Source of the DNA: Candidatus Zipacnadum vermilionense
Lineage (GTDB): Bacteria > Armatimonadota > Zipacnadia > Zipacnadales > Zipacnadaceae
DNA length: 64,000 nt
Direction of reading: 5' to 3'
Assembly (NCBI GenBank): GCA_029821755.1
Contig: JALGSV010000004.1
Span: 310,001-374,000 of the forward strand
Part shown: piece after piece, positions 4,106-62,704 of the stretch
Position numbering within the stretch: the stretch's first letter is position 1
Layout: each line of letters opens with the position of its first letter
Position numbers and translations under genes: made by a program
Notes under the pieces: model-generated
The model's input: the letters and a program-made list of their open reading frames with translations, nothing else
The model's database searches: none
Told to the model about the DNA's origin: nothing

Positions 4106-6463
4106 CTACTGGCCTGCCCGGAACTCCACGTCCACCAGGTCCTTCCCCGACGTGCAGATGACGCGGTGTAGTTGCAGATTAGTCACGCCTGCCGGAGCGC
4201 CCCCGGGGACCCAGACGCGGACGCTGAGCAGTGGTTCGATCATCTCCGCTACCCACTTCGGGTCCGCCTCTCCCCTATCGTCCAGGTACGCGAACCCGTC
4301 CGCCCCGTTGGGCATCTTCGCGGCGCCGGGCGTCCCGGAGTTCATGTTACACTGCAGCAACGCAGCCCGGGCGGGTGGTTGGGCGTTGTTAAGGAGCACC
4401 GTATCTGCGGTCGAGCCCGCTTGGTTCACCCAGAAGAGATTGTTCATGATGAGCAGGTTAGCGTCGGCGCCGTCCCCTGCGGTCTCGACCCGGGCGGTTA
4501 TGTTGGAGTTGACGGGAAGCAGTAGACCCGTCAACAGGGCAAATGAGCCCCGGAAACCGTCGGCGCCTACCAGGGGGTGTTCCAGCGAGGTCTTGTAGGA
4601 GAACCGAGTGGCGTCGATGGCCATCATGCCGGTGTCGTTGAGCAGGATGGCCTGGCCGGCGTCACCGGAGATCTCATGGTAGACGCTGCGCACCACCAGC
4701 CGCCCACCCTTCTCAACAGCGTAGTCGGCCTGGGCGGTCCCGGTGGCGCCGCACAACACGGAGACCTGGCTGGGCACGTGCTCGGCGTCTTGCACCAAAG
4801 GTCCGCCGACCACCTTCACCCACGTCTGGCACTCGGTGGCCCCCTGCAGATTGCGGAGCATCACGTCGCTACGCTCCAGACCGTTGACGAGGATGCCTGT
4901 GGGGCGCATCGTCGGATTGAAGCCGGTAGCGTTGAGTTGGTCGGCGAAGATGCGCCCGCCTGGTTGGTCGGCCTTGTCCACCAGGAGGCAATTGCCACGC
5001 TGGGCCTGAAGGGACAGGTCGCGGACCGTCGCTACTGAGGGGCCAACCAGGCGCAGAAGGGTCCCGCCCTCCGGCCCCGTCCACTGCAGGACGGTCGCCG
5101 TCTCCGCCGCGCCGTCGCCGATCAACTGCACGTCGCAGCCCGCGGGGATGGTGAGGGTCTGGTCAATGCTGTAGATGCCCTTGGCAATGTGCACGACCGG
5201 ACGCTGTCCCTGCAGAGCCGCGGCGGAGTCAAGCGCGGCCTGAATCGTCGCCGCGTCCGCCCCGACGGCGATCTCGAAAACCTGCCGCTCTCTAGAGGGC
5301 GGGCAGGGCGGCAGCATCGGCAGCTCGCTGCTGATGGTCGCCGGATCCACAACCGTATCGTCGTTGATGCGCAGGAAACGCCCCGTTTCACTCACCGGAT
5401 CTTCCACCGTGTAAGTGTTGCCTACGAAGGTCTGATTGCCCCAGGTCATGCCCACCACCGGCCCCTCCTGCTCCGGGCGCGACTTGATAACGTTGTTCCC
5501 CACGAAGTACGGCCCGCCGTTCCCCAGGCGAATCGCCCACGGCCCCGTCGGCTCGATGATGCGGTTCCCGGTGATGGAGGTGGCAGAGCCCCAGGTGTGG
5601 CCGCCCGAGAAATCGAGGAAGCAGTTGGACCCGATGGAGGTATTGTTGATGAAGGACATGGTCATCAGGTTCGCGGTCCCGATGTCCGCGTTCTTCGAGC
5701 GCAGGAACAGGTTCTGGTAGGCGTGGAAGTTGCCAGCATTGTTGTACATACCGTAGCCGCAATCCTCAAACCGGCAGTACCACGCCCAGATGTCGAGAGC
5801 GTTGTAGTTGGTGGGCACGATGCCCTTCTCCGAGCAGCGCAAGAACTGGCAACGCAGCACCGCGTTCTCCGCCTGCCCGAAGGCGCCGACAATGCCCATC
5901 ACCAGCCCCATCTTCACGTCCTGGAAGACCATGTCCGAGGTCTCGTTGTAGGTCGAGAACGCCGGCCCGTAGCCGAGAGCCACTGCCGCTTTGCCCTGCC
6001 CGTCAAGGGTCAGGCGGCTGATCTTGGAATACCAGGCGTCGTAGGTGAACATGGTCCCATCGGCGGGGCCATCCCACTTCAGGATGGTGGTAGCGGGATC
6101 CTCGCCGATAACCGTTATGCCCATGCCCTCCGTGTGGGCTTGGCGGATTGTGCTGACGGTATTGGTGAGGCGATACGTGCCGGCGGGGAAGTACAAGACG
6201 CAGGAGTCCTGGTGGAAGCGCAGTTCATCGAGGCCGCGCTGAATGGCGGCCGTGTCGTCGGCCACGCCGTCCCCCACCGCACCGTAGTCGGCCTTGACGT
6301 CCTTCCAGGAGGCGTAGGGGCCGTTGAACTCCTCCGCAAAGGCCTGGGAGGCAGCCGCGGCAGTAGGCGCGGGAGTCGGACCCGGGGCGGCCTGGGCGAG
6401 GCAACCGGCGAGGAGAAGGCAGAGACAGAGTAGAGTCCAGGTAGAGACGCTGCGCATAGCCAA
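4106..6463 (-). CDS. Pectate lyase superfamily / right-handed beta-helix lipoprotein
   Basis: Lipobox-like signal 'LLCLCLLLAGCLAQ'; 'DVKADYGAVGDGVADDTAAIQRGLDEL' followed by beta-helix-like repeats. Confidence 0.82.
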   Translation of the reverse strand: MAMRSVSTWTLLCLCLLLAGCLAQAAPGPTPAPTAAAASQAFAEEFNGPYASWKDVKADYGAVGDGVADDTAAIQRGLDELRFHQDSCVLYFPAGTYRLTNTVSTIRQAHTEGMGITVIGEDPATTILKWDGPADGTMFTYDAWYSKISRLTLDGQGKAAVALGYGPAFSTYNETSDMVFQDVKMGLVMGIVGAFGQAENAVLRCQFLRCSEKGIVPTNYNALDIWAWYCRFEDCGYGMYNNAGNFHAYQNLFLRSKNADIGTANLMTMSFINNTSIGSNCFLDFSGGHTWGSATSITGNRIIEPTGPWAIRLGNGGPYFVGNNVIKSRPEQEGPVVGMTWGNQTFVGNTYTVEDPVSETGRFLRINDDTVVDPATISSELPMLPPCPPSRERQVFEIAVGADAATIQAALDSAAALQGQRPVVHIAKGIYSIDQTLTIPAGCDVQLIGDGAAETATVLQWTGPEGGTLLRLVGPSVATVRDLSLQAQRGNCLLVDKADQPGGRIFADQLNATGFNPTMRPTGILVNGLERSDVMLRNLQGATECQTWVKVVGGPLVQDAEHVPSQVSVLCGATGTAQADYAVEKGGRLVVRSVYHEISGDAGQAILLNDTGMMAIDATRFSYKTSLEHPLVGADGFRGSFALLTGLLLPVNSNITARVETAGDGADANLLIMNNLFWVNQAGSTADTVLLNNAQPPARAALLQCNMNSGTPGAAKMPNGADGFAYLDDRGEADPKWVAEMIEPLLSVRVWVPGGAPAGVTNLQLHRVICTSGKDLVDVEFRAGQ

Positions 6464-6493
6464 TCACTCCTGCGATTCGGGATGGGATACTGC

Positions 6494-8572
6494 TCAACTC
6501 AACTGCGAATGAAACACCCGGCCCTCCCCCTCATAGGCACCTGCGCGCCAGGGGAGGTTCCACTGCATGTGCTGATCGACGTACACGTCGCGGCGGCCGT
6601 TGATCGTGATCGCCAGCCCCGTCATCTCCCACGGCGACAGGTCCCCCTCGTCCCCCTGCACGGGGAGTACTTCGACGGAGACCGGGGGCGGATCATCCCC
6701 CTCGAAAGGCACCAGCATCGTCGCAAACAACCAATTCCCGGTCTGGCGGTGCGTATAGGTCAGATGGTCCGGGTTCTCGTAGTCCTTTACGGGCCAGGGA
6801 TGGGGCTCCATCGCGCCCTGCCCGGCGGCGCCGGGGACGGGAAGGATGAGCAGGTTCCCGCCCTCGCCGTGGGTGACCAGGCGGCCGTCGGGGTGGAGAG
6901 TGTGCGGGACGTTGAGGTGAAAGTGGAGCTGGTAGTCGTGCTCGGCCTCGCCGGGGGCGGTGAAGCGGTCAAGCATGATCCAGTACTGGCCGCGCAGGTA
7001 GAAGAGCTTGCGGCGGACGGCGGTGACCTTGTCAGGGAGGCGGAAGTAGCCCTCGTGGACGCCGCTGAAGTAAGCGAAATCGCGCTCAGCGCGCCAGTCG
7101 TCCACGGTAGGAGTGATGGTGGCGCCCAGGAGGAACTCGGAGACCACCGGGACCTGGTCCTGGCCGTCGACGGTGGCGACGTTGTGGGCGGCGCTGCTTA
7201 CGCGCCACATGCGGGCCTGCGGGTCGTAGGCGGGATCCAGCGAGGGGCCGTACCAGTTGTCCACCAGGATCCGGCGGCCACGGGCGTATAGCTCGAAGCC
7301 GAGGCGGTCGGCGTGCTGGTGGCTCGTGACGCGGGGGCCGACGGGACCGGCGACGAGAGCGAGGTAGTCGGCGCGGCGGGACCAGTCCTGGCGCATGACG
7401 TACAGGCCGCTGCGGCGCAGACAGGTGTCGGGAGCGGGCGGGGCGACGGCGGGGACGCGGTGGTAGGCCGGGAGCAAGTTGCGGCCCTCTTCCGACAGGA
7501 GGCCGTAGGGGGGTTGCCAGTCCGGGGAGAGGGTCTCGGCGACCCACTTGGCCTCGGGGAGGCAGAACTGCGCGGCGTAGCGGCGCAGTTGGGTGAGAGC
7601 TGCGGTTTCCCGCGGAACCGCCCGCAAGTCGCGCCGAGACCATTGGCCTCGGGCGATGAAGCCGGCCGAGACGCGGGTATCATCACCGAAGACCGGGTAG
7701 CCGCCGTCGGGGGCGATCAGGTGCCACCCGGCGTCGGCCATGACGCGGAGCTTGGCGCGGGTCGCCTCGCGGACGACCAGCCCGTTCATCTCCGCGAAGT
7801 GAGCCCAGCGGAGCAGGTTCCCCGCCGCGAAGAGGCTGTAGCCGGGAGCGCCCTCCCTGCTCCAGCCGTCGTCCTCGAAGAGGATGTCGACCTCGCGGTC
7901 CAGGTAGTCCGTCCCGAGCGCGCGGAAGCGAGCGACACCGATGAACTCAGGGAAGCACACGCCGAGGGTGAAGAAGCCCAGGAAGGTGTGGGCCCACCAA
8001 TTGTGACCCGTGGTACCGAGAGTGGTCTCCGTCCAGGCGCGGGCCTCGGCCCACTCCTTGCCGGCCTTGGTCAAGAGCCACGCGAAGAACGGAGCAAGGT
8101 CGGAGTCGGCGCACTCGTCGAGGGGGAACAGGTAGCGGATCAGATCCACCACGGAGTGCACGACACCCCAGTAGCCCTCGTCCCAGCGGTCGCTGTAGTC
8201 CAGCACCTTCTCGGCCATCGCGTGGCACCGCTCCGGGGTGGCCGCGAGGATAATCGTCTCCGCCCCGAGGTGGTGGTACGTATCCGAGTGGTTGACTACC
8301 AGCGGCTTCCCGCGGACCTTTTCCCAACGCCGCCCTGCGGCCTCTACCTCCTCCGCCGAGGCTCCGGCGCGCAGCTCGGCAACATAGGCCCGGGTATACC
8401 CCAGTCGTGGCGTCTCCCGTTCGCGCAGGTGTCGGATCAGACCCAGCGCCGCTTCGGTAGAACGCCCCTCTCGGGAGGCGGCGGCGAAATCTGTCTCCGC
8501 CAAGTCCGGGCGGGACCAGTCCACCTGTCCGCAAAGGAATTGGGCAACTTGGTGCAGGCGGTCTTCGGACAT
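6494..8572 (-). CDS. Heparinase II/III family protein
   Basis: Start chosen at MSEDRLHQ (upstream CAGGAGAG); 'TSHQHADRLGFELYARGRRILVDN' C-terminal heparinase-type motif; paralogue of 9927-11975. Confidence 0.8.
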   Translation of the reverse strand: MSEDRLHQVAQFLCGQVDWSRPDLAETDFAAASREGRSTEAALGLIRHLRERETPRLGYTRAYVAELRAGASAEEVEAAGRRWEKVRGKPLVVNHSDTYHHLGAETIILAATPERCHAMAEKVLDYSDRWDEGYWGVVHSVVDLIRYLFPLDECADSDLAPFFAWLLTKAGKEWAEARAWTETTLGTTGHNWWAHTFLGFFTLGVCFPEFIGVARFRALGTDYLDREVDILFEDDGWSREGAPGYSLFAAGNLLRWAHFAEMNGLVVREATRAKLRVMADAGWHLIAPDGGYPVFGDDTRVSAGFIARGQWSRRDLRAVPRETAALTQLRRYAAQFCLPEAKWVAETLSPDWQPPYGLLSEEGRNLLPAYHRVPAVAPPAPDTCLRRSGLYVMRQDWSRRADYLALVAGPVGPRVTSHQHADRLGFELYARGRRILVDNWYGPSLDPAYDPQARMWRVSSAAHNVATVDGQDQVPVVSEFLLGATITPTVDDWRAERDFAYFSGVHEGYFRLPDKVTAVRRKLFYLRGQYWIMLDRFTAPGEAEHDYQLHFHLNVPHTLHPDGRLVTHGEGGNLLILPVPGAAGQGAMEPHPWPVKDYENPDHLTYTHRQTGNWLFATMLVPFEGDDPPPVSVEVLPVQGDEGDLSPWEMTGLAITINGRRDVYVDQHMQWNLPWRAGAYEGEGRVFHSQLS

Positions 8573-44949: not shown

Positions 44950-47900
44950 ATGCTCTTCATAGACCAGGGAATCAATGACGCCTGGATACTGCCTCAGCAC
45001 GTGACTCCGACCGGCCCGGGGCTTTTCACCATTGCACTCCGCGAACCGCTCGGCCAAGACTGGGACGCGCAGATCGTCCGCTACCCCCTCCCCGAAGTCG
45101 AGCCGGGTAGCCCCGTAGACGTCGCGTGCGCGGGGGCGAGTGTCCCCAGCCAGTGGGACGGCGACCTGTTGGCCTTGCGCGTGGACGGCCTCCGCGCCGG
45201 GGAGGAGCGCGTGTTCGAGGTCGCCCTGGGCGAGGCTACCCCCTCCACCACCTCCGGCGTCAGCGTCACCGAGACCCCGGACGCGGTGCTGGTAGACAAC
45301 GGAGCCATGTCTCTGCGCCTGCCGGCCTCCGCGGACACCGACCTCACCTGTCCCCTCCCCGGCGCGCTACTGGCTGTGCGTCGCGGCCAAGGCCCGTGGC
45401 TTGGTCAGGGCCGCCTGGAGACCAACCTCCCCTGCACCGCCTTGACCACCCGGGTGACCGAGTCCGGCTCGCTCTGGACAACCGTGGAGGTCACCTACAC
45501 TTTCGCCGCGGGAGACGCAGAGGACGTCTGTTCGCCCTGCTACTGCGTTCAGTTCCGCATCCAGCCCGACGCCGAATACGTGCAGGTCCGCGAGACCAGC
45601 ACCCTCCCCGTCCGCCTCTGGCCCCAGCCCCGTCCCTATCGGGAGATTGGCAGCCTGGGCGGCTCCCACTGGGCCCAGCCGCTGGAGAAGCTCGCCCTGC
45701 CCTGCCTGCGCCCCTGGCCCACGAGCAACTTCATCTTCGACCTGCGTGCCGGCTGGGACCCCGACCGCTTGATCACCCACTCCACGGCCTCCTGGGAGCT
45801 TATGGATCTCCCCCTCGCCTCCCCGGTCCTCAAGACCTACACCGCCATGCGGGCATCCAATCCCTTCATGGACGGCGGCTGGTTAGGCGTTTATGCCACC
45901 GGCGAGGACCTCGTCGGCGTAGCCTCCCTTGATATCGCTCACTGGGGGGTACCGGATGAGACCCTCCACCCCGCCCACCGCACCGCCGGCGCCAGCGAGG
46001 AAGTCATCCTCCTGGACGGTGCCCAGGAGGGCACCTTCCTCAAGTTCCCTGTCGAGAATATCAAGCGTCGCTGGCTGCTGGCCGTGGCCCCCGCCGCCGC
46101 GGCTGCCGCCTTGCAGCCCCTGGACCCTTCCGATCCGCCTCCGTCCCCAGACGGCCCCCGCCGCCAGGCCCCTGACCCCACCTTCTCCCTCTGGCGTCTA
46201 CGCCGCTGCCAGGGCGACCTGCGCCTCGACAAGGTGAAGGACTGGATTCTCGACTGGCCCGAAGGCCCCCAGACCCATCCCCGCGTCCTGTGCAACGCTG
46301 CCGACCTCTCGGCGATCCGCGAGAAGATCCGCTCCGTCCCCGAGCTGCTGGCCAACTACGAGGCCACCCAGCAGTGGCGTAGCGCCGACCGGTACGTCAT
46401 GACCGGGGAGGCCTCCGGCCTGGCTGCGATTGAGGAGACCACCCACGGGCGGGAGATCGTCGAGACCCTCCTGGCCCAGGGCTACACCGCGCCCAACTAC
46501 TGCATCGCCCTGGCCCGCCCCTTGCGCCGCTACGCCCTGGCTTGCGACGTCCAATGGGACTCCTTCACCGCCGAGGAGCGCCGCGAGGCCCGCCGGGTCT
46601 GCGCCTTGGCCGCCTATATTCTCAGCGACGGCGACTGGTGGCAGTACGCCCTCACCCCCGCCCAGACCACCTACCTGCCCAACTTCAATACTGACGTCTT
46701 CTGCTGCGCCGGCCTCATCGGACTAGTCCTCGCTGACCACCCCTGTTCCGGCGCCTGGGTGCAGTTCCTGGTGGACCGGCTGGAGCTAGACCTGGAGTAC
46801 CACCTGCGCCTGGATGGCGGCGGGGAGGAGAACGTCGGCAACTACCTCATCTCCACCTGGGGCCAACTGCTCACCCCTGCCCTCTGGGGCCTCCGCCATT
46901 GCGGGATTAAGGACTACTCCGACGACCCCCGCGTCCGCGCCGGAGCCCGCTTCCTGCTCAGGGCCCTCGGTCCACCCGACCCCCGCGACGGCGGGCGGCG
47001 CCAGATGCCTCCCATCGGCCACCATCCCGGCGCCCGCAAGTCGCCTTTCCTGTTCGCCTGGCTCGCCGCTTTCGTCAAGGACAGCGACCCCAGCCTCGCT
47101 GCCAATCTCATGTGGGCCTGGCGCCAGGTCGGCTCCCCCGTCGCCAATTTTTATGACCACTCGGGCATCACCGCTAACCCGCTCACCCGTCACTATCTCT
47201 TCCACGACCCGACCATTCCCGAGGTTGCCCCGCGCATGGAGAGCCACGAGCTACCGTACGTCGGGGCCGTCCTGCGCAGCCACGACCGCAGCGGCCAGGG
47301 CAGCTATCTCTTCCTCAAGGCCGGCCGTGTCCATTCGCACCATGAGGACGACGAGGGCTCCCTGCACTGGTTCGCCCGCGGGGTGCCTCTGGCCGTCGAC
47401 GGCCTGCCGCTGATGAACGTCCAAGTGTCCCGGCTGCACAACGTGGTCTCCTTCGAGCCGCCGGGCCAGCCGACCATGGTCGTAGAGCACTTCGCGGTTA
47501 CCCCCGGTGCCGACTACGTCCGGGGCCGCATGGCTCCCGGGGCCTATTGCGCCGAAGGCATGAACTTCGAGGGCGTACACCACAGCGGCTTCACCCGCGA
47601 GATCATCTTCGTCAAATCCCCGCAGCCCGGCGGCATCGAGTACGCCGTGCTCCGCGACACTTGCGCCGGTCCCGACGCCCCTCAGTGGAACCTGGACGTC
47701 CTCTCCCGCAAGCCCCGCCTGCTCGCCCCCGGCCACGTCTGGTTCCCCGGCCACCCGGAGTTGGACATGGGCCTGGAGGTGTTCATGTTCGAACCCACGG
47801 CCCCGCAGATCACCTTCGAGTCTGGTCCCCTCCAAGAGAACCTCCTCACGACCGAGGGCCGCGCCAAGCTGAAAGCCGGGGATATCGACTGGACAATCAT

Positions 47901-48219
47901 CGAGCACTGGCTCATGCACGTCCCTGCCGCCCCCGGCGCGACCTTCACCACCGTCCTGTTCCCGCGCCGCCCGGCGGAGCTGACCCCCGAGGTGGAATAC
48001 CTGCCGCGGGAGCAAGTTCTACGCGTCGTGCACCCGGAGGGCCAGGACCTCCTCTTCTTGCGCACTAACCCCGGGCTCCAGGTCAGCCTCGACGGGGTCG
48101 TGTTGCAGGGCCGCGCCGGGCTCGCGCGCAAGATCGATGACGAGTATATCCTCCACGCGCTCGACGCCGAGCGCATGGAATTCGCCGACTGGGCCACCAG
48201 CCGCATACTGATCGCCTAG
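44950..48219 (+). CDS. Heparinase II/III-like protein
   Basis: 'GRVHSHHEDDEGSLHWFARGVPLAVDG'; long alpha-helical central region; start MLFIDQG. Confidence 0.75.
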   Translation: MLFIDQGINDAWILPQHVTPTGPGLFTIALREPLGQDWDAQIVRYPLPEVEPGSPVDVACAGASVPSQWDGDLLALRVDGLRAGEERVFEVALGEATPSTTSGVSVTETPDAVLVDNGAMSLRLPASADTDLTCPLPGALLAVRRGQGPWLGQGRLETNLPCTALTTRVTESGSLWTTVEVTYTFAAGDAEDVCSPCYCVQFRIQPDAEYVQVRETSTLPVRLWPQPRPYREIGSLGGSHWAQPLEKLALPCLRPWPTSNFIFDLRAGWDPDRLITHSTASWELMDLPLASPVLKTYTAMRASNPFMDGGWLGVYATGEDLVGVASLDIAHWGVPDETLHPAHRTAGASEEVILLDGAQEGTFLKFPVENIKRRWLLAVAPAAAAAALQPLDPSDPPPSPDGPRRQAPDPTFSLWRLRRCQGDLRLDKVKDWILDWPEGPQTHPRVLCNAADLSAIREKIRSVPELLANYEATQQWRSADRYVMTGEASGLAAIEETTHGREIVETLLAQGYTAPNYCIALARPLRRYALACDVQWDSFTAEERREARRVCALAAYILSDGDWWQYALTPAQTTYLPNFNTDVFCCAGLIGLVLADHPCSGAWVQFLVDRLELDLEYHLRLDGGGEENVGNYLISTWGQLLTPALWGLRHCGIKDYSDDPRVRAGARFLLRALGPPDPRDGGRRQMPPIGHHPGARKSPFLFAWLAAFVKDSDPSLAANLMWAWRQVGSPVANFYDHSGITANPLTRHYLFHDPTIPEVAPRMESHELPYVGAVLRSHDRSGQGSYLFLKAGRVHSHHEDDEGSLHWFARGVPLAVDGLPLMNVQVSRLHNVVSFEPPGQPTMVVEHFAVTPGADYVRGRMAPGAYCAEGMNFEGVHHSGFTREIIFVKSPQPGGIEYAVLRDTCAGPDAPQWNLDVLSRKPRLLAPGHVWFPGHPELDMGLEVFMFEPTAPQITFESGPLQENLLTTEGRAKLKAGDIDWTIIEHWLMHVPAAPGATFTTVLFPRRPAELTPEVEYLPREQVLRVVHPEGQDLLFLRTNPGLQVSLDGVVLQGRAGLARKIDDEYILHALDAERMEFADWATSRILIA

Positions 48220-50414: not shown

Positions 50415-53400
50415 ATGCCCAACAACCGACCGCTCTCCGTGCTGACCTTAGCCTGCCTCGCTCTCTTTGCCTGCCCGGCTATGGCCCAGGTCACCACTGA
50501 CCACTGGCCCGGTTTCCGCGGCGACGGCTCCGGAATCTCCCCCAGCCCCGGCCTCCCGGTCCACTGGACCGCCACCGACAACGTGGCCTGGAAGGTTGAA
50601 GTCCCCGGCGATGGCTACTCCTCCCCCATCATCTGGGGTACCCGCCTCTTCCTCACGGCCGGGATGGACAAGACCCGCATTGTCCTCTGCTACGACGCCG
50701 ACACCGGCGCGCTGCTCTGGCAGAAGGCGCTGGAACTCCCCGCCCTCCCCAGGCTCTACGGCGACACCGGCCACGCCCCCTCCACCCCCGTCACCGACGG
50801 CCGGCGCGTCTACGCCTTCTTCGAGGGCCTCGGCCTGGTGGCTCTCGACCTGGACGGCAACCTCCTGTGGACCACGCCCCTCGGCCCCTTCAATAACATG
50901 CACAGCGAGGCCAGCTCGCCGGTTCTCTACAAAGACTCCGTCCTGCTCTGCTGCGACCAGCAGGCGGAGGGTTTCCTCGCCGCCTTCGACGCCGCTACTG
51001 GCGTGGAGCGCTGGCGCACCCCGCGCAACCTGGGCTCCCACTGGTCTACGCCGCTGCTTATACACTACCAGGGCAAGCCGCAGGTCGTGATCGGCGCCAA
51101 GACCGTTGTCTCCTACGACCCGGACAGCGGCCAGGAGTTGTGGTCCTGCCGCGGCCTGAGCCCCAACGTCGTCCCCAGCCCCGTCTTCGGCAACGACCTC
51201 GTCTGGGCCAGTTCCGGCCGCAATGGCCCCGCCATGGCCCTGGACCCCGGCCTGGCCGGCGACGTTAGCGACACCGCCGTCCGCATGTACTACCCCGTCG
51301 GCGGCCCCTACGTCCCCTCCCCGCTACTCTACCCGCTGCTCATGCTCCCTGGCGATAACGGCCACGTTCGCTTCCTCAGCCCTCGCGGAGAGGTGGTGGC
51401 GGAATTGCGGCTCAAGGGCCACTTCTTCGCCTCCCCCCTCGGCGCCGAGCAGCGGATCTATTGGACCAGCCAGTCTGGTGACACCTACGTCCTCGACGCA
51501 AGCGGCCTAACCTCGCCCCGCTATGAGGCCAAGGTTCTCGCCGTCAACAGCCTGGGCGAGAAGTGCCAGGCCTCTCCGGCGGTCGCGCGAGGGAGGCTGT
51601 ACCTGCGCACCGAGCAGCACTTGTACTGCCTCGCCGGCGCGGACGCCGCAACCGATCCCGTCGCGCCCCCCGTCCCCGCCGCCAGCTTCAGGGAACTCAG
51701 AGAGCGCTACGCCCAACACCCCGCCGCCACCGGGCCTGACGTGGCTGTGCGCATCCAGGTCGTGGAGGCCATGGCTCCGCTACCGGACCCCCAGGCCGTC
51801 CCCTTCCTGCTGGAGGCCACGCTTAAGGACCCGCACTGGGACGTTTGCGAGGCAGCGGCCAAGGCGCTGGGCCGCCAGGGCGACGGCGCGATTCCCGGGC
51901 TGCGCTCGCTGGTGGCGGATCGCCGTCCCTTCATCCGCATCATCGCCGCGCAAGAACTCGGCCAGTTGACCGCCGCGGCCGCGGTCCCTGAGTTGGTCAA
52001 GGAACTCCAGGAGGCCGACGCGCTCTCGCGCCTGGCCGCCCTGCAAGCCCTGGGCGAGATCACCCGCGCCCACCCGGAGCAGACCGGTGACACCGTGCCC
52101 GCTCTTCTGGCCGCACTTCAGGACCCCGAGGCGATCGTCCGCGCCGGTGCCGTCGTGGCCCTCGGTCGCGCCCCGATTCCGCCCGGCGACCTGCGCGGTG
52201 CTGCCGTGCGCGCCCTGCTCGACGCCCTGACCGACCACAGCCCCCTCGTCACCGCGACGGCGCAGCGCGTCCTGGCCGGACCGTATCAGGTACCCCAGGA
52301 GGTCATCATGCAGGACGTGGTTCTCTACGGCGCCCAGCGCCCAGCGGCGGTGGTAGAACACCTCACCGCCGGTCCGGTGCGACTCAAATTCCAGGACGGT
52401 GAGCTGCGCTATCTCTACGTCGGCGACCGCGAGATCGTCCGCCGTGTCTACTTCGCCGTGCGCGACTCGCGGTGGGACACGGTCATGCCCGAGTTCACGC
52501 GCACCGAAGTTGAGCGCACCGATGGCGGCTTCCGCCTCAACTTCGCGGCCCGCTCCCGCAACGACATCACCGACTACACCTGGACCGGAGAGATTCTCGG
52601 CACCGCCGACGGGAAGATCACCTTCCGCGTCTCCGGCGCCGCAGGCTCCGACTTCGACTCGCCCCGCGTCGGCCTCAACGTCCTCTTCGGCAGCGATTCC
52701 CTCGCCGGTCTCCCTTACGAGACCACGGACGCCGCTGGCCAGACCACGCCCGGCGTCTTCCCGGTCCCCGTCTCCCCAAGCCTACTGACCGGCAAGTGGA
52801 CGCGCCTGGCCTACCAAACCGATACCGGCCTGCAGATCGCGTGCCAAGTCACCGGTGCCGACTTCGGCATGGAGGATCAGCGCAACTTCGGCGACAGCAG
52901 CTACAAGGCCTACAGCGCCCTGCCCTACAAGTACCCCCGTATCCCCCAGGACGAGAACCAGGAGGAGGTGCTGGAGCTGTCCGTGACCGGACCGACCCCG
53001 GCCGCTCCCAGTCCCGGCCCCGTCCGAGTGCTCGTGCGCGCGGCCCGGCCGGATCGCGTCTTCCCCCGTCTGACGCCTCCGCCAGACGCCGCCGAAATCG
53101 CCGACTTCCTCCAGATCAACGGCAAGCCCGACGACTACCGCGCCGCCCGCGCCCTCACCATGCCCTTCAACCCCGCGGCTCACATGCCGGACGAAGACAC
53201 CTTCATGGAGAACCTCACGGCACTGACCGCGCAGGTGGCGTCCGTGCGGGCGATCGCGCCCCAGGCGACCGTGAAAGTCGGCCCGATCAACTTCGATTCC
53301 CCCTACCCGCGCCCGGCCCCGGACGCACGGCGGCAGGGCCGCTTCGCCGCTGCCTGGGCCGCCGCGGCGTACCTGGAGTTGGTCCAAGCCGGCGTGCGCG

Positions 53401-53756
53401 AGGCTTCCTTCAGCGCTGGCCCCGCCTCCCAGCCAGTACTCGAGGCCCTCGCCGCCCAGGCCGGTAGCCCCGCCCTTGCTACGCAGCTCTTCGGCCTGTC
53501 ACCCTCCCCGGTTCGAGCCGGGGCTGCCCTGGTCGGGGGCGAACAACGCCTCTGGCTCATCAACCAGACCCCCGACCCGCAGACGGTCCTGGTCGGTGGC
53601 CTGGGCGCCTTGGCGCAGGCGCCCCTCCGGCGCTTCCTTGGCACGGAACCGCTGGCCTCTCCGATCGAGGCCACCGCGACCGTCGCTCGCGAGGTTTTGT
53701 GCCTGGAATTGGAGCCCTACGAGGTCTGTGAGGTGAATCTGGGCCAGCGCCCGTGA
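50415..53756 (+). CDS. PQQ-like beta-propeller + HEAT repeats + C-terminal D-apionate lactonase (ApnL)-like domain
   Basis: Signal peptide; 'DHWPGFRGDGSGISPSPGLPVHWTATDNVAWKVEVPGDGYSSPIIWG'; HEAT 'IRIIAAQELGQLTAAAAVPELVKELQEADALSRLAALQALGEI'; ApnL-like 'YTWTGEILGTADGKITFRVSG' and 'FGMEDQRNFGDSSYKAYSALP'. Confidence 0.8.
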   Translation: MPNNRPLSVLTLACLALFACPAMAQVTTDHWPGFRGDGSGISPSPGLPVHWTATDNVAWKVEVPGDGYSSPIIWGTRLFLTAGMDKTRIVLCYDADTGALLWQKALELPALPRLYGDTGHAPSTPVTDGRRVYAFFEGLGLVALDLDGNLLWTTPLGPFNNMHSEASSPVLYKDSVLLCCDQQAEGFLAAFDAATGVERWRTPRNLGSHWSTPLLIHYQGKPQVVIGAKTVVSYDPDSGQELWSCRGLSPNVVPSPVFGNDLVWASSGRNGPAMALDPGLAGDVSDTAVRMYYPVGGPYVPSPLLYPLLMLPGDNGHVRFLSPRGEVVAELRLKGHFFASPLGAEQRIYWTSQSGDTYVLDASGLTSPRYEAKVLAVNSLGEKCQASPAVARGRLYLRTEQHLYCLAGADAATDPVAPPVPAASFRELRERYAQHPAATGPDVAVRIQVVEAMAPLPDPQAVPFLLEATLKDPHWDVCEAAAKALGRQGDGAIPGLRSLVADRRPFIRIIAAQELGQLTAAAAVPELVKELQEADALSRLAALQALGEITRAHPEQTGDTVPALLAALQDPEAIVRAGAVVALGRAPIPPGDLRGAAVRALLDALTDHSPLVTATAQRVLAGPYQVPQEVIMQDVVLYGAQRPAAVVEHLTAGPVRLKFQDGELRYLYVGDREIVRRVYFAVRDSRWDTVMPEFTRTEVERTDGGFRLNFAARSRNDITDYTWTGEILGTADGKITFRVSGAAGSDFDSPRVGLNVLFGSDSLAGLPYETTDAAGQTTPGVFPVPVSPSLLTGKWTRLAYQTDTGLQIACQVTGADFGMEDQRNFGDSSYKAYSALPYKYPRIPQDENQEEVLELSVTGPTPAAPSPGPVRVLVRAARPDRVFPRLTPPPDAAEIADFLQINGKPDDYRAARALTMPFNPAAHMPDEDTFMENLTALTAQVASVRAIAPQATVKVGPINFDSPYPRPAPDARRQGRFAAAWAAAAYLELVQAGVREASFSAGPASQPVLEALAAQAGSPALATQLFGLSPSPVRAGAALVGGEQRLWLINQTPDPQTVLVGGLGALAQAPLRRFLGTEPLASPIEATATVAREVLCLELEPYEVCEVNLGQRP

Positions 53757-55626: not shown

Positions 55627-57570
55627 CTACGCAGACCTTCCCCCTCCCGCGAACCTCGGCATTCCCGCCAGCCGCCGCATGACTACCTCCGCCAGAGCGG
55701 TCCGGTCCGCCCTCACGTAGAGGGGAAGATGCTCCACCGGGTACTCCTGCTCCGCCAGCCACTGCGGCCCGCTCAGGGACCCGCCGCCCCACGGGTCCAG
55801 CCACTCTCCCTCCGGCAGATAGACTCTGCGGCGCGACTCGAGCGTGATCACCGGCGCGACCAGCAGGCTCTCCCCCACCAGAAACTGGTCGTAGATCGGG
55901 TAAGTCTCCGCGTCGCCCGGCCACTGTAGGAACAGCGGACGTACCATCGGCTGGCCCTCGGCTACCGCCCGGTCGGCCAGGGCGTCCCAATAGCCGGCGA
56001 GGTCTTCATGCAGGCAGGTGTACTCGCGGGCGAGGTCGACCGTATTGCGGTCGTAGTTCCAGGGGGCCCAGGAGAACTGCATAATCGGCAGTAGGGCGCA
56101 GGCCTGGGTCCAGCGCAGGAACATAGCCGCGCCGGGGAGGGCCAGGTCTGCTTCGCGGGTGCTGATGCGGCCGCCGATCATGTCGGGGATGAGGAAGGGG
56201 TAGCCCAGCAGGCCCTGGGTCAGCCCCAGCGCCAATACGGCCCCCAGGCCGTTGTTGAGCCCCCAAACGGAATCCTTGCCGCCCTCCCGCGCCATTATCC
56301 CGCTGGCCTGGGTCAACCACTCCGTGCGGGTCTCAACCAGGTCGTAGAAATGGTCGTGGAAGAACTGTACATACAGGTCGCAATACCTGGCAGGCGTAGT
56401 AAGCAGGTGGAAACCGCGGTCGGCGCCGGTGGGCTGGTAGCGCAGGTCGCCGCCGTCCATCTTGAAGCCGTCAAAGCCGTGCTCGTCCCTCAGGCGGCGC
56501 AGGCGAGTGGCGTACTCGTCCGCCGCCGCCGGATTGGAGAAGTCCACCAGCCCGGCCGGGCCGTGCCACCAGCGCATCATCGCCGGCCGCCGTCGGGTGG
56601 CATCCATCACCATGTACCCGGTGTCGTATTCCTCGGAGAAGGTCGCGGTGTCCTCATTGACAAAGGGGCAGGTCCACAGCGTAGCGTGGTACCCGAGGGC
56701 ATGAATCTCGTCCACCATACCGGTGGGGTCGGGGAACTTGCTGCGGTCGAAGCGCAGGTCGCCGTGGCCGGTCTCCCAGCGCTCGTCCACCTGCACGACA
56801 TGGCAGGGGAAGTCGTAGCGCCGAATGTCACGGGCCAAATGGAGGGTCTGTTCCTGGGTGATGGAGTGACCGTACTGGGTCCAGGTGCTGAAGATGGGCC
56901 GAGTGAAGGACTCGCGACCCGGCCGGCGGCGGGGCGCGCCGAGCAGGGAGATGGCAGTCCGGCGGGTCTGCTCGATATCGCTGCCTGCGATCAGGTGAAA
57001 GCGGCTCTGCATCGTGTCGACGACGCCCCAGGAGATCAAGCCGCTGTCGCCGGTGTTGAACTCCAGGCGCATCGTCTCGCGAGTGGGCACCAACAGCCCC
57101 AGGCCGGAGGAGGTCAGCCACAGGGGAGAGCGGGTATTGGAGGCGGAGCAAGGGTCGAGCGTGATCTCACCGGTCTCCAGGGGCCAGAACATCGGCTCAT
57201 GGTGGCCGAAGCCGTACCAGTGTCCCGCGGGAGCCAGGGCGAGGGTCTGCTGCAGCGCCTGGCCCGGTGAGTTTTCCGTGACGCTCCAGAGAACGGTCAG
57301 CAGGTCACCGGCCAGCTCCAAGTCCACCGCACACTCCACGCCACCGCCCGTACGGACCACCAGGCGAGCGACGCCTGCCGCAAGGTCGTGGCTAACGATC
57401 TCCTCCAGGGAATCCCAGCGTCCGGCGCGACGCAGGGCAAAAGGCGCTTGGTCAGGCCTGCCGACAAGCCCGGGCTCGCCCAGCAGCCTCCCCTCTCGCC
57501 ACAGACGCAGGGCGAAGGGGCGGTCGGTGATCTCGAGACGGCAGGAGCCGGAGCTAACGGTCAAAGGCAT
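55627..57570 (-). CDS. Glycoside hydrolase family 31 (alpha-glucosidase/xylosidase-like)
   Basis: 'FDGFKMDGGD', 'PFLIPDMIGG', 'FLRWTQACALLPIMQFSWAPW', 'EGQPMVRPLFLQWPGDAETYPIYDQFLVGESLLVAPV'; start MPLTVSSG. Confidence 0.9.
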   Translation of the reverse strand: MPLTVSSGSCRLEITDRPFALRLWREGRLLGEPGLVGRPDQAPFALRRAGRWDSLEEIVSHDLAAGVARLVVRTGGGVECAVDLELAGDLLTVLWSVTENSPGQALQQTLALAPAGHWYGFGHHEPMFWPLETGEITLDPCSASNTRSPLWLTSSGLGLLVPTRETMRLEFNTGDSGLISWGVVDTMQSRFHLIAGSDIEQTRRTAISLLGAPRRRPGRESFTRPIFSTWTQYGHSITQEQTLHLARDIRRYDFPCHVVQVDERWETGHGDLRFDRSKFPDPTGMVDEIHALGYHATLWTCPFVNEDTATFSEEYDTGYMVMDATRRRPAMMRWWHGPAGLVDFSNPAAADEYATRLRRLRDEHGFDGFKMDGGDLRYQPTGADRGFHLLTTPARYCDLYVQFFHDHFYDLVETRTEWLTQASGIMAREGGKDSVWGLNNGLGAVLALGLTQGLLGYPFLIPDMIGGRISTREADLALPGAAMFLRWTQACALLPIMQFSWAPWNYDRNTVDLAREYTCLHEDLAGYWDALADRAVAEGQPMVRPLFLQWPGDAETYPIYDQFLVGESLLVAPVITLESRRRVYLPEGEWLDPWGGGSLSGPQWLAEQEYPVEHLPLYVRADRTALAEVVMRRLAGMPRFAGGGRSA

Positions 57571-57696
57571 CGCGGACGAAACCTCCCTGAGATGGTGCGG
57601 TGCCGCGGTAGTTCCCGGCCCCGCGAGGCGACACCTCCACAGGGCCGAGAAGAGGTCCTGACGCCAGGTAGCGGGAATCTCGGCGAGGTGAATGCC

Positions 57697-59274
57697 ATGC
57701 GCCGATGTCGACTTATCGCTGCGCTCAGCGCCCTGCTTTGGGCGGGAACGCTGGGCCACTCCCTCGCTGACAAGGAGCCGCTGAAGATGCCGCTACAAGC
57801 CGATTACACTGTAGACATTGCCGCCGCCGGGAAGCCGGGGCAGTTTGCGCTGGAGGCCCCCGCGGCGGGGACGGCGACGGTCCTGGTGCGGGGGCTGTCG
57901 CTGGGTGGGTTTGTGGAGGTCAAGGTCAACGGCGGTGCCCCGGCCGGGCTGGAGTTGCTGGCCACCGGGGGGCTGCTGCAGGGCCACGCCGACAGCGCGC
58001 TGGTCACCGCCCAGTTGAAGGCCGGAATGAACGAGGTCACGGTCGCCGAGAGCGACGGGGCACAGGTGGTGCACGTGCCGGGCACTCAGCATTGGTTCGG
58101 CGCCGCAACCGAGGCGGGCGGCCGGCCGGTGTTCTCCCTGGACCTGCAGCAACTGCTGACCGTGGAGAAGGAGTACTCGGTCAACGTGTACTATGGGCCG
58201 GAGTGGGACCATTTCCTGTGGTTCAGCGGGCGCTGGGACCGGTACTACGGGGAGGTGTACGCCAGCGCGGCCCGGAAGGTCTGCGGGAGTACCGGGGCTG
58301 GGGCGGCGACGCTAGCCTATACGCTCGAGTATCCGGAGCGCAATCTGGTGATGCCTACCAGCATCACGCTGGAACCGGAGCCGATGACCGGGGCCTATAC
58401 GCTGCGCGTGCGGCAGGTGCTGCGAGCGGTGGGCGAGCCGAGCTGGGGGGACAACCTGGAGTTCCTGCACGTGGTCATCAACCCCACCTACGGGCTGGAC
58501 TGGCAGGACGGCGTGCCTGATTACACCTGGTACCGGAGCCAGCGAGAGGACGCCCCGGATGCGCTGCCAGGGACTCATACCGGCATGTGCCGTTTTGACG
58601 ACAACTCGGCGCGGACCTACCCCTACCACTCCAGCACCACCGATCCCACCAAGGTGACCATGGCCGGGCAGCACCACACCGGGGCCGCCGAGCCCCTGGA
58701 GGCTGTTAACACCATCGGCGGCTTCTTCACCAAGACGGGCGTGGGTTCGTGCGGATGGGTGTTCCACCAGTACAAAGCCTCCTGGCGCCAGGATGCAAGC
58801 CCGCTGCATGGCCACTGCGGGGACGGGGCGGACAACCACTTCCTGCTCTTCTGGAATGAGCTGTTCACACCACTGGGGATGAAAGCCGGCGACGAGCTGG
58901 AGGTGGAGTACAGCCTGACCATGCTGCCCAGTGAGGTGCTGCGGGAGGACATCGAGGACCTCAACGAGGCGGACCTGTTCCACTTCGGCAAGGAGAAGGA
59001 GCAGAAGTCGGAGATCACCGGCTGGGTGGGCACCAAACAGGCGGTGGGCTTGCGGCGCAGCGACGGATCGCTGATCTTGCTGGGGATCGGGCGGGAGCCA
59101 GGGCGGCTGCCGGTGCCGACGGGTACGCAGGCGCAAGCGCGCCGCATCTGCCGCTCCTTCGACTTGATCCGGCCGCAGGTGCAGGACCTGCAGATCACCG
59201 AGGGATCGGTGGAGGTCAAGCCGAGGTGGGTCACGATCGTGGACTGCGGCTCGGCGTTGCGGTGGCCCAAGTAG
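57697..59274 (+). CDS. Secreted hypothetical protein
   Basis: Signal peptide 'LIAALSALLWAGTLGHSLA'; no recognised catalytic family; divergent from GH31. Confidence 0.65.
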   Translation: MRRCRLIAALSALLWAGTLGHSLADKEPLKMPLQADYTVDIAAAGKPGQFALEAPAAGTATVLVRGLSLGGFVEVKVNGGAPAGLELLATGGLLQGHADSALVTAQLKAGMNEVTVAESDGAQVVHVPGTQHWFGAATEAGGRPVFSLDLQQLLTVEKEYSVNVYYGPEWDHFLWFSGRWDRYYGEVYASAARKVCGSTGAGAATLAYTLEYPERNLVMPTSITLEPEPMTGAYTLRVRQVLRAVGEPSWGDNLEFLHVVINPTYGLDWQDGVPDYTWYRSQREDAPDALPGTHTGMCRFDDNSARTYPYHSSTTDPTKVTMAGQHHTGAAEPLEAVNTIGGFFTKTGVGSCGWVFHQYKASWRQDASPLHGHCGDGADNHFLLFWNELFTPLGMKAGDELEVEYSLTMLPSEVLREDIEDLNEADLFHFGKEKEQKSEITGWVGTKQAVGLRRSDGSLILLGIGREPGRLPVPTGTQAQARRICRSFDLIRPQVQDLQITEGSVEVKPRWVTIVDCGSALRWPK

Positions 59275-59529: not shown

Positions 59530-61560
59530 TCAGCGGAACAATATCACCGCGACGTCCTCCGGAGCCAGGGGAGCGTCCCCGGAGAGACGTCCGGCGGGAG
59601 TCTCGATGGTGGTGAGGGACTTCCCAGGCCAGGAGAGGGATAGCTCCTGGGGCTCGGAGGTCGGGTTCCATACGGCTACGGCGCAGCCGGCCTCGGACTC
59701 AAAGGCCCGTGCTACCAGCGCGGGATTAGTTATCTCTAGCGGCTCGGTTTCGAGAAATCTCCCCCGCAGCAGGATTGCCGCGTGTTTGCGGCGGAGGCGG
59801 TTGAGGGCGGCGAGGCGCGCCACGAAGGCGGGGGCTAGGTCGGTGAGAACCTCGCATTGCTGGCGCGGGGCGAGGAAGAAGCGGTAGCCCATGACGAAGG
59901 AGTAATGGAGTTGCTCGTAGTTCTCCCGCGCCATGTACTGGGTGCAGAGGATGTCCTCGGGAAAGGTGTAGCGGTACATCTCCCCAAAGTGTTGATCCCC
60001 GTAGAAGAATCCCAAACCGAAGGGTAACGTGAAGTCGTAGTACTGGAGGATCACATCGGCGATGTACTCTCCGCCGAGGGCGAGGTCCTCACTCTTGGCC
60101 TTGACCAGGTCGCGGGCTTGGCGCGATAGCTCGGTCTTGCCCGGGCCGCAGGAGAAGGCAGGGCTAGGATGACCGTGGCGCTCGTCGAAGCAGAGGAAGG
60201 AACTGGGACCGCCGGCGACCTGATCGAGGAAGACGCAGTCTACACCCCAGTCCAGGCCGCGCTGTACGCAGCGGAGCACCTGCCTTTGCCAGGGCTCGGT
60301 GGCGATGCAGGCGTTGATGAGCTGGAAACGCTCGTTCATGCCGATGATCGAGCCGTGGCTGGGCCAGGTGAAGATGTCTACGAAGGGATTGCCGTAGGGA
60401 CCCTTGATGGCGCAGAACTCGCCGTGCTGGGCGTAGAACTCGGAGTTCGGGGACATCTGGATGAAGTGGAAGTACAGGACCATCCGATAGCCATCGCTCT
60501 GCACGCGGCGGAAGTTCTCCACCAGCGCAGCCTCCCCGCCGAGGCGGTCGCTAGCGAGGAAGTCGGGCAGCATGTTGTCGTGGCCACCGTGGGACCAGCC
60601 GGTGAGCTTGACGACGTCGATGTCACCGGTGCGGGCGGCGGCGGCGATCTCGCCGATCTGGTCGTAGCGGAATTTGACCCGCCCATGCTGGTGCATCATC
60701 ACCACGTCCTGCATGGCCGGCATGTCCCGGACCCAGGCGGGCTTGGAGCGAGAATGGTCCTGGTAGGTGTCGCAGAAAGCGCGGTAGCGGCGGGCGTCGC
60801 GGCGCCAGAGGTCGGCGTGCACGGCCACCACGAAGGGGGCGCTCTGCCAGGTCTCGCCGGGGGCAACAAAGGGATACTTGATGAAGCCGAGCGAGAGGGA
60901 ATCCTCCTCGGACGTGGGCCCAAAGTTGAGGACGGTGTTGGTGGCAGTCGTCTGGAGGGAGGAGTCGTGGGAACCGACGTAGAGGCTGCCAGAGGCGCCA
61001 TACAGGCCGAGCCACTGCATCGAAGCGCGGCCGGGGTAGAAGTCGCGCAGGAAGTTGAAGCGCACACCGCGGACCGGCTGGGCGTTGCGGTCGGCGAGGT
61101 TGCGAAGGGGATCGGAGATGCGGCGACCGGCGGACTCGGGGTAGAGTAGGAAGGCGGCGTCCGGATCGTCACCGAGGTTGCCCAGACCGCCAATCAGGGG
61201 GAACCAGAGCTCGGCGAGGCGCGGGGCAGAGCGGTTGGTGAGACTCGCGGTGAAGGTCAGCTCCTCACCGGAGAGGGTCACCTGGTAGCTCAACTCGGCG
61301 TCCACCGGTCCGCCCTGGAAGTCGACCAGGGAGGAGTAAGTGACCATCAGAGTGTTACCGTCCCGCCGAATCTCCGGGGGGGATTGCTCGGAGGCGCGGA
61401 TGGGGGTCTCCGGGTCATCGTCGGTGGGGTAGATGAGTTGCCAGAGATCGAGACCGGCTTGGGTCACATATTCGCAACCGGTACGGAGGTTGCGCAAGGA
61501 GGCGAGATTGCCGCGCTCATCAAGGGACAGGCTGACGAAGTCGTTGCGGAGTTGGGCCAT
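59530..61560 (-). CDS. DUF6259-like glycosidase-fold protein
   Basis: 'MAQLRNDFVSLSLDERGNLASLRN', 'DVVKLTGWSHGGHDNMLPDF', 'YRMVLYFHFIQM', 'LDWGVDCVFLDQVAGG'. Confidence 0.7.
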   Translation of the reverse strand: MAQLRNDFVSLSLDERGNLASLRNLRTGCEYVTQAGLDLWQLIYPTDDDPETPIRASEQSPPEIRRDGNTLMVTYSSLVDFQGGPVDAELSYQVTLSGEELTFTASLTNRSAPRLAELWFPLIGGLGNLGDDPDAAFLLYPESAGRRISDPLRNLADRNAQPVRGVRFNFLRDFYPGRASMQWLGLYGASGSLYVGSHDSSLQTTATNTVLNFGPTSEEDSLSLGFIKYPFVAPGETWQSAPFVVAVHADLWRRDARRYRAFCDTYQDHSRSKPAWVRDMPAMQDVVMMHQHGRVKFRYDQIGEIAAAARTGDIDVVKLTGWSHGGHDNMLPDFLASDRLGGEAALVENFRRVQSDGYRMVLYFHFIQMSPNSEFYAQHGEFCAIKGPYGNPFVDIFTWPSHGSIIGMNERFQLINACIATEPWQRQVLRCVQRGLDWGVDCVFLDQVAGGPSSFLCFDERHGHPSPAFSCGPGKTELSRQARDLVKAKSEDLALGGEYIADVILQYYDFTLPFGLGFFYGDQHFGEMYRYTFPEDILCTQYMARENYEQLHYSFVMGYRFFLAPRQQCEVLTDLAPAFVARLAALNRLRRKHAAILLRGRFLETEPLEITNPALVARAFESEAGCAVAVWNPTSEPQELSLSWPGKSLTTIETPAGRLSGDAPLAPEDVAVILFR

Positions 61561-61567
61561 CACGGGC

Positions 61568-62704
61568 TCACCTTGCCGACGGAGGACTAGGCAAGCGGTA
61601 GTGTTCCCAGGCGAGCGGGCTAGTGTACAGCGCCAGGCGCGACACCCGCACCGCCTCCAGCGGCTCCACCGACAAGCGCAGCCTGCTTTCCTTGCCCAGG
61701 CGTTCCGCCCAACGCCCCCGCAGCGGCACCAGGGCCTGAGACCGCTCCCGCGCGGCAGGGAATACCCCCGCCCACTCCGTGCCTCTCTCCCCGACCAGCC
61801 GCACCCGCAGCGGCCCGCCCTGGTACTCCATCCGTAGGGCCAAGGCGGCGGCACCTGCGGGGGCGGGGACAGTCAGCGGGCCGGCTCCGGCGGTTTCTCC
61901 TACCAGAGAAAGCGGCTCCTCCACCGTCCGCCCTACCCAGGCGGTGTAGAGGTCCTGGCCGACGGTGCTGAGCAAGCGATAGCCGATCCCCTCCGGCGGG
62001 GCGGCGAAGGAAAAGGACAGGGAACTGGTCACCAGATGCAGCCGCCCCTGTTCATCCCGGGCGTGTGCGTTGCGGTGCCAGTGGCCGGTGAGGGTATAGG
62101 CCAGGTAGTGGCCGTCGAAGCAGGTGAGCAGGTCGGCGGCGTTGTCTACCTGATTCGACGAGGGGAGCAGGGGGAAGTGGCACATCACCAAGAGGGGCTG
62201 CCCGGGCGGCAAGGTCGCCAACTTCCCGCGCAGCCATTGGAGCTGCTCCACGGACATGTGGCCCTCGTGCTGCAGCTTGTCGTCCCTGAAGTACACCCCG
62301 TCCACCGCCACCAGCACCCACCCACCCAGTCGTTGTGTATAGTAGTTAGGATGCCCTAGGAATCGCACAAAGCGCGCGTCATACTCCCCCGGGCCCGGCG
62401 GGCCCTCGTGGTTGCCGGGGCAGGCGTACAAGGGCACGCGCAGGTCCTGGCGGACCGCCATCCAGTGCTCGTACTGGTTGATCGAGCCGTCGTTGGTCAG
62501 GTCCCCGGGGAAGAGCACGAACTGCGGCTGCAGTTCGTTGACCTGCTCAACAGCCCAGCGGAAGTCGTCGAAGGGGTCGTTGTCGCCCTTCTGGGTATCG
62601 GAGATGACAGCATAGAACAGGGGCGGCTGGGCGGCAGCCGCGGCGAGCAGGCCGAAGAGTAGGAGAGAGACCAGAGCCGTGCGGAGCAGGGGAAGGCGGG
62701 TCAT
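61568..62704 (-). CDS. Secreted metallophosphoesterase (copy 1)
   Basis: 'FYAVISDTQKGDNDPFDDFRWAVEQVNEL', 'LFPGDLTNDG', 'YACPGNHEGP', 'VMCHFPLLP', 'YTLTGHWHRN'. Confidence 0.88.
   Translation of the reverse strand: MTRLPLLRTALVSLLLFGLLAAAAAQPPLFYAVISDTQKGDNDPFDDFRWAVEQVNELQPQFVLFPGDLTNDGSINQYEHWMAVRQDLRVPLYACPGNHEGPPGPGEYDARFVRFLGHPNYYTQRLGGWVLVAVDGVYFRDDKLQHEGHMSVEQLQWLRGKLATLPPGQPLLVMCHFPLLPSSNQVDNAADLLTCFDGHYLAYTLTGHWHRNAHARDEQGRLHLVTSSLSFSFAAPPEGIGYRLLSTVGQDLYTAWVGRTVEEPLSLVGETAGAGPLTVPAPAGAAALALRMEYQGGPLRVRLVGERGTEWAGVFPAARERSQALVPLRGRWAERLGKESRLRLSVEPLEAVRVSRLALYTSPLAWEHYRLPSPPSAR

Follow-up and report, generated by a model that had tools for sequence, protein, structure and literature searches.

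A propeller/HEAT protein fused to a short ApnL-like module with a reduced barrel, found in three bacterial phyla

A Single ORF Encodes a Three-Module Protein

The ORF at positions 50415–53756 of the window (the whole 64,000-nt stretch of DNA that was analyzed) encodes one protein in which a PQQ-like propeller and HEAT repeats are followed by an ApnL-like C-terminal module. Because the same rare three-part design is found in two other bacterial phyla, this fusion is a real, uncharacterized architecture and not a sequencing accident. Our verdict is that the novelty lies in a short barrel and a new architecture within a known family, not in a new kind of system. The reading frame, on the + strand, is open throughout its 1113 codons, from an ATG at 50415 to a stop at 53754–53756, and contains the following features:

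50415–53756, + strand: whole fused ORF; 1113 aa, ATG behind AAGGAG; colinear homologues L075 and L112
50415–50486, + strand: signal-peptide-like N terminus MPNNRPLSVLTLACLALFACPAMA; putative cleavage after AMA, read by eye; similar leaders in L075 and L112
50496–51635, + strand: PQQ_2/BamB-like β-propeller, residues about 28–407; Pfam, with PQQ dehydrogenases and BamB as PDB sequence matches
51729–52274, + strand: HEAT repeats, residues about 439–620; Pfam HEAT_2, HEAT, and HEAT_PBS, with alphaRep and HEAT chains in the PDB
52297–52310, + strand: internal AGGAGG-TCATC-ATG on the C-terminal module border; AGGAGG 52297–52302, ATG 52308, spacing 5
52308–53753, + strand: short ApnL-like module, 482 aa; NCBIfam NF049900, short clade in the tree, AlphaFold2 model
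52353–53060, + strand: predicted N-terminal β-supersandwich, module residues 16–251; AlphaFold2 model, like the GH97, GH101, and LacZ sandwiches
52869–52913, + strand: MEDQRNFGDSSYKAY motif; module E189, D190, R192, D196, S198, and K200, identical in every short and full-length form compared (alignment)
53151–53453, + strand: remnant of a (β/α)8 barrel, strands 6–8 only, with conserved H292, D295, E301, R341, and W350; AlphaFold2 models of short and full-length forms, alignment
53469–53747, + strand: predicted C-terminal β-sandwich; AlphaFold2 model, like GH79, GH30, and GH44

Within the first 620 residues, Pfam PQQ_2 scores 75.7 bits (E 5.5e-21, gathering threshold 27.6) and HEAT_2 scores 78.9 bits (E 3.7e-22, gathering threshold 27.7). 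The last 482 residues match no model in the Pfam copy used, and neither do the ApnL-like proteins that we scanned, but the NCBIfam ApnL model (NF049900) aligns its positions 3–230 of 595 with ORF residues 635–859 (E 1.6e-42). These Pfam and NCBIfam matches bear out the first-pass annotation, which had described a PQQ-propeller/HEAT protein fused to an ApnL-like domain. The propeller resembles PQQ_2/BamB-like proteins (PF13360) over residues 28–407, and more weakly PQQ dehydrogenases and BamB; models for PQQ-dependent dehydrogenases give weak, partial matches confined to residues 28–204 and far under the family cut-offs. The propellers of these relatives match this part only, whereas that of the window protein continues into HEAT repeats and the ApnL-like module.

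Two colinear fusions were found elsewhere. The first (L075), in a Planctomycetota MAG (JABMSA010000574.1), is 47% identical to the window protein over its whole length and shares the junction VPxEVIMxDxxLYGxQR, while the other (L112), in genome G1065, which shares its phylum with the Lentisphaeria MAG, is 48% identical in the PQQ/HEAT part and 45% in the module. This combination had been singled out beforehand as unfamiliar; it is indeed unusual but, as these homologues show, not unique to the genome. All three proteins start with a hydrophobic leader of the signal-peptide type which, judged by eye, indicates that the ORF product is probably exported. A literature search for the ApnL lactonase or for a PQQ+HEAT+ApnL-like architecture returned nothing in the collection searched.

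The Short Module Has Lost Five of Eight Barrel Strands

The extent of the reduction can be seen by comparing AlphaFold2 models of the window module (pLDDT 86, pTM 0.87) and of a full-length relative, L013 (pLDDT 91). In the L013 model, a supersandwich is followed by a barrel with all eight strands (residues 262–266, 289–295, 318–325, 347–354, 380–385, 404–409, 444–449, and 502–507) and then by a C-terminal sandwich. The module is predicted to have the same supersandwich and C-terminal sandwich but, where the full-length relative has all eight barrel strands, only strands 6–8 (282–287, 321–328, and 365–369), the missing stretch corresponding to L013 residues 264–382. The best PDB structure matches of the L013 model are GH30 enzymes, while those of the module are GH97, GH101, and LacZ-type sandwiches and GH79/GH30-type C-terminal parts; we take the domain covered by each match from aligned lengths and known folds. 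Resemblance to these glycoside hydrolases is thus at the fold level only, with identities of only 7–16%: in the full-length relative the barrel and the C-terminal sandwich are like GH30, and in the short form the supersandwich is like GH97 and GH101, the short-form barrel differing by being cut to strands 6–8. One further full-length-type relative (L104, 622–3378, genome G616) has a 919-aa open frame with a YYETTGW motif, which may reflect an extra domain or upstream read-through.

Short forms like that of the window make up one clade in the tree, apart from the full-length forms, with a support of 100/100. They were found in Armatimonadota other than the window genome, itself a member of this phylum, and in Planctomycetota, Lentisphaeria, Acidobacteriota (including Solibacter), and a MAG labeled Aminicenantes; they represent a distinct ApnL-like subfamily present in at least four phyla. 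In the contig search, a single-sequence query gave no match and an alignment query recovered the short forms. Among the genomes listed for the same genus, family, and order, the phylum profile found no match, and the single sequence gave one weak local hit, in G024. Among the stand-alone short forms, three (L068, L076, and L080) have signal-peptide-like leaders, as read by eye, and the others, in other genomes, are leaderless.

Most Residues Conserved in Both Forms Lie in the Supersandwich

Alignment of the short and full-length groups revealed 32 columns conserved at 90% or more in both, 26 of them within the supersandwich or in the linker behind it. They include (module numbering) R34, R52, R120, E189, D190, Q191, R192, N193, D196, S198, K200, H292, D295, E301, R341, and W350, and the same residues, Q191 and N193 aside, served to place the module in a broad ApnL superfamily, since it retains all of them. 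E189, D190, R192, D196, K200, and R341 are present in all short forms and H292 in 93%. By comparison, the deleted stretch (L013 264–382) holds a single column, a glycine, conserved at this level among full-length members. The short subfamily retains nearly every polar residue that the wider family conserves, and most of these residues belong to the N-terminal supersandwich. Two barrel glutamates of many full-length members (FTELN and YYETTGW) are absent from the short forms, in which the glutamate adjoining the motif (L013 E189), invariant in full-length forms, is variable. We rejected the idea of a decayed pseudogene because stand-alone copies from different phyla are strictly conserved.

Our best explanation, to which we give even chances when taken as a whole, is one exported three-module protein, a scaffold carrying a minimized ApnL-family carbohydrate domain that acts on a sugar lactone or related substrate. 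A Sec-type leader would take the protein out of the cytoplasm, where the BamB-like propeller and HEAT solenoid could provide a scaffold or docking surface for the C-terminal module. The putative ligand or active site, which we deduce from conservation, would be a GH97/LacZ-type supersandwich with the invariant E-D-Q-R-N-x-x-D-x-S-x-K, together with the surviving barrel residues H292, D295, E301, and R341. If its chemistry is of the lactonase type, the module would most likely hydrolyze a product of oxidoreductases encoded by neighboring genes, either a sugar lactone or a related derivative of a sugar acid. The loss of both barrel glutamates and the variability of the L013 E189 equivalent appear to count against this explanation.

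The loss of both barrel glutamates, together with that of barrel strands 1–5, is what one would expect if the short module were a noncatalytic pseudoenzyme that, minus five strands and the glutamates, only binds carbohydrate for a scaffold or sensor protein, and its attachment to two binding or scaffold modules fits this possibility. The strict retention of charged residues across several phyla and the presence of stand-alone short genes beside metabolic genes (FAH and SDR) are more enzyme-like, and we hold the pseudoenzyme to be possible but clearly less probable than the exported scaffold with a lactone-directed domain. No more than tentatively, we consider that the short subfamily is a working enzyme, with an active site mainly in the supersandwich and a barrel down to three strands. 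If true, the catalytic center of the whole ApnL family would lie outside the first five strands of the GH30-like barrel, and an exported scaffold–enzyme fusion would be common to three phyla. A conserved natural half-barrel subfamily indicates the function-bearing part of the fold and offers a small testable construct, and the fusion connects carbohydrate chemistry, probably extracytoplasmic, with the propeller/HEAT scaffolds that are widespread in these groups.

Gene Neighborhood

In the window, the ORF is surrounded by genes for an AP_endonuc_2 protein (48233), a Gfo/Idh/MocA protein (49231), an isochorismatase-type hydrolase (53766), and a GH31 protein (55627). Elsewhere, aldo/keto reductases are encoded beside L112 and L113, the latter also having an AP_endonuc_2 gene, and the neighbors of L115 are of the mandelate-racemase and Gfo/Idh/MocA types. 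Although neighboring genes vary between genomes, they fit sugar oxidation or sugar-acid use, which is context and not proof. In two genomes of one genus (L066 in G057, L067 in G067), a stand-alone short ApnL gene lies near FAH-hydrolase and SDR genes (both present at L067), a context that suggests a sugar-acid pathway.

Two further window ORFs are worth recording. The first (44950–48219, + strand), with a likely start at ATG 44950 behind AGGAGG-N6, encodes about 1090 aa that match no Pfam model; the middle of this protein (HPRVLCNAADLSAIREKIRS) looks to be of the heparinase/alginate-lyase type. The second (57388–59274, + strand), scanned from 57559 to 59274, has no Pfam match and lies between the GH31 gene (55627–57759, − strand) and a gene for a DUF6259 protein (59530–61854, − strand), in a region that looks devoted to carbohydrate use.

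An Internal Shine–Dalgarno Sequence at the Module Border

The first-pass annotation had pointed to AGGAGG-TCATC-ATG as a strong Shine–Dalgarno (SD) sequence inside the long ORF, and we confirmed that it sits at the module border. A strong SD and ATG exactly on a domain border exceeds chance, because the pattern is enriched at both scales: the genome has 304 AGGAGG-N4–7-ATG sites vs. 175 in the backward control, and the window has 12 AGGAGG-N3–9-ATG sites vs. 3.8 expected (0 of 100 shuffles reached 12). Since 5 of the 11 other window sites open ORFs of more than 300 codons, the 52308 site is on a par with nearby sites that are probably true starts.

Were ATG 52308 used, the same mRNA would also yield a second, leaderless, and cytosolic lactonase-like module, that is, dual products in dual locations. 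This reading, which we regard as unlikely, draws on a site (AGGAGGT-N4-ATG) that is among the strongest SDs in the window and exactly at the border, on the similar GAGGTG-ATA-ATG (GAGGTG-N3-ATG) at the same place in the Planctomycetota fusion, and on the leaderless stand-alone short forms of other genomes. However, the L112 fusion reads ...SPRGDDRLLYG at the border and lacks a start codon there, its closest ATG being some 15 codons upstream and preceded by a weak GGAG, and the nearest stand-alone relatives (L068, L076, and L080) have leaders. Moreover, the SD core is a consequence of the conserved peptide E-V-I-M, and its presence in L075 is therefore not independent evidence: with the core on Glu-Val codons, conservation at this level does not distinguish selection for a start from conservation of the peptide. 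Between the fossil and active start sites envisaged earlier, the partial conservation, with L075 keeping a similar site and L112 having no border start codon, makes a fossil or incidental site seem likelier than a used start. We accordingly judge that the SD–ATG either survives from a formerly separate gene or simply results from the Glu-Val-Ile-Met codons.

Relation of the Module to ApnL

By itself, the module scores 151 bits against NF049900 (E 4e-44), far under the curated cut-off of 750 bits, and its best stretch covers only positions 3–230 of the 595-position model. Those full-length ApnL-like relatives from the same phylum that were scored likewise fall below 750 bits. Alignment with such proteins shows that a midsection is absent from the window module, and a PDB sequence search with the module gave no match. 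Judged against the full-length relatives, the module shares with ApnL the N-terminal supersandwich with MEDQRN-x-x-D-x-S-x-K, the last three barrel strands, and the C-terminal sandwich, but it lacks barrel strands 1–5, lies behind PQQ and HEAT parts, and belongs to a protein with a leader. The HMM search proposed at the outset therefore upholds ApnL homology for the C-terminal part and not its identity as a D-apionate lactonase. Similarly, of the ApnL pattern read earlier over both halves, the N-terminal 230 positions score well, while the C-terminal part is homologous but misses five of eight barrel strands. That a genuine D-apionate lactonase was joined to the scaffold is very improbable: the ApnL match extends across the N-terminal 225 residues of the module, but the score, the barrel deletion, and the separate clade all speak against it, and we rejected it on the first two counts.

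Origin of the Fusion

Among 41 relatives and 18 short-form genomes, in which propellers are common, propeller and HEAT repeats occur as a clean single unit in the fusions only, other matches being to a propeller or HEAT alone; a G019 stretch with five internal stops was left out of this count. In Solibacter (L080), a separate propeller gene (4460–5893) lies directly upstream of a leader-bearing short ApnL gene (5905–7383), and this pair is an unfused counterpart of the window architecture, without HEAT. The C-terminal tree does not place the modules of the three fusions together, but a single origin is not rejected (p-AU 0.104). The earlier suggestion that two genes fused, if taken to mean a recent event peculiar to this genome, is contradicted by the two independent fused homologues in other phyla, and we rejected it. 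A wrong assembly base at a lost stop codon that joined two operon genes is scarcely credible and in practice excluded, because, although a single change immediately ahead of the SD, such as CAG to TAG, would split the two parts, the full-length architecture is likewise open in two independent assemblies from other phyla. As a side observation, PQQ_2-type propeller paralogues are numerous across the order, in G000 and its relatives, with up to nine matches per genome.
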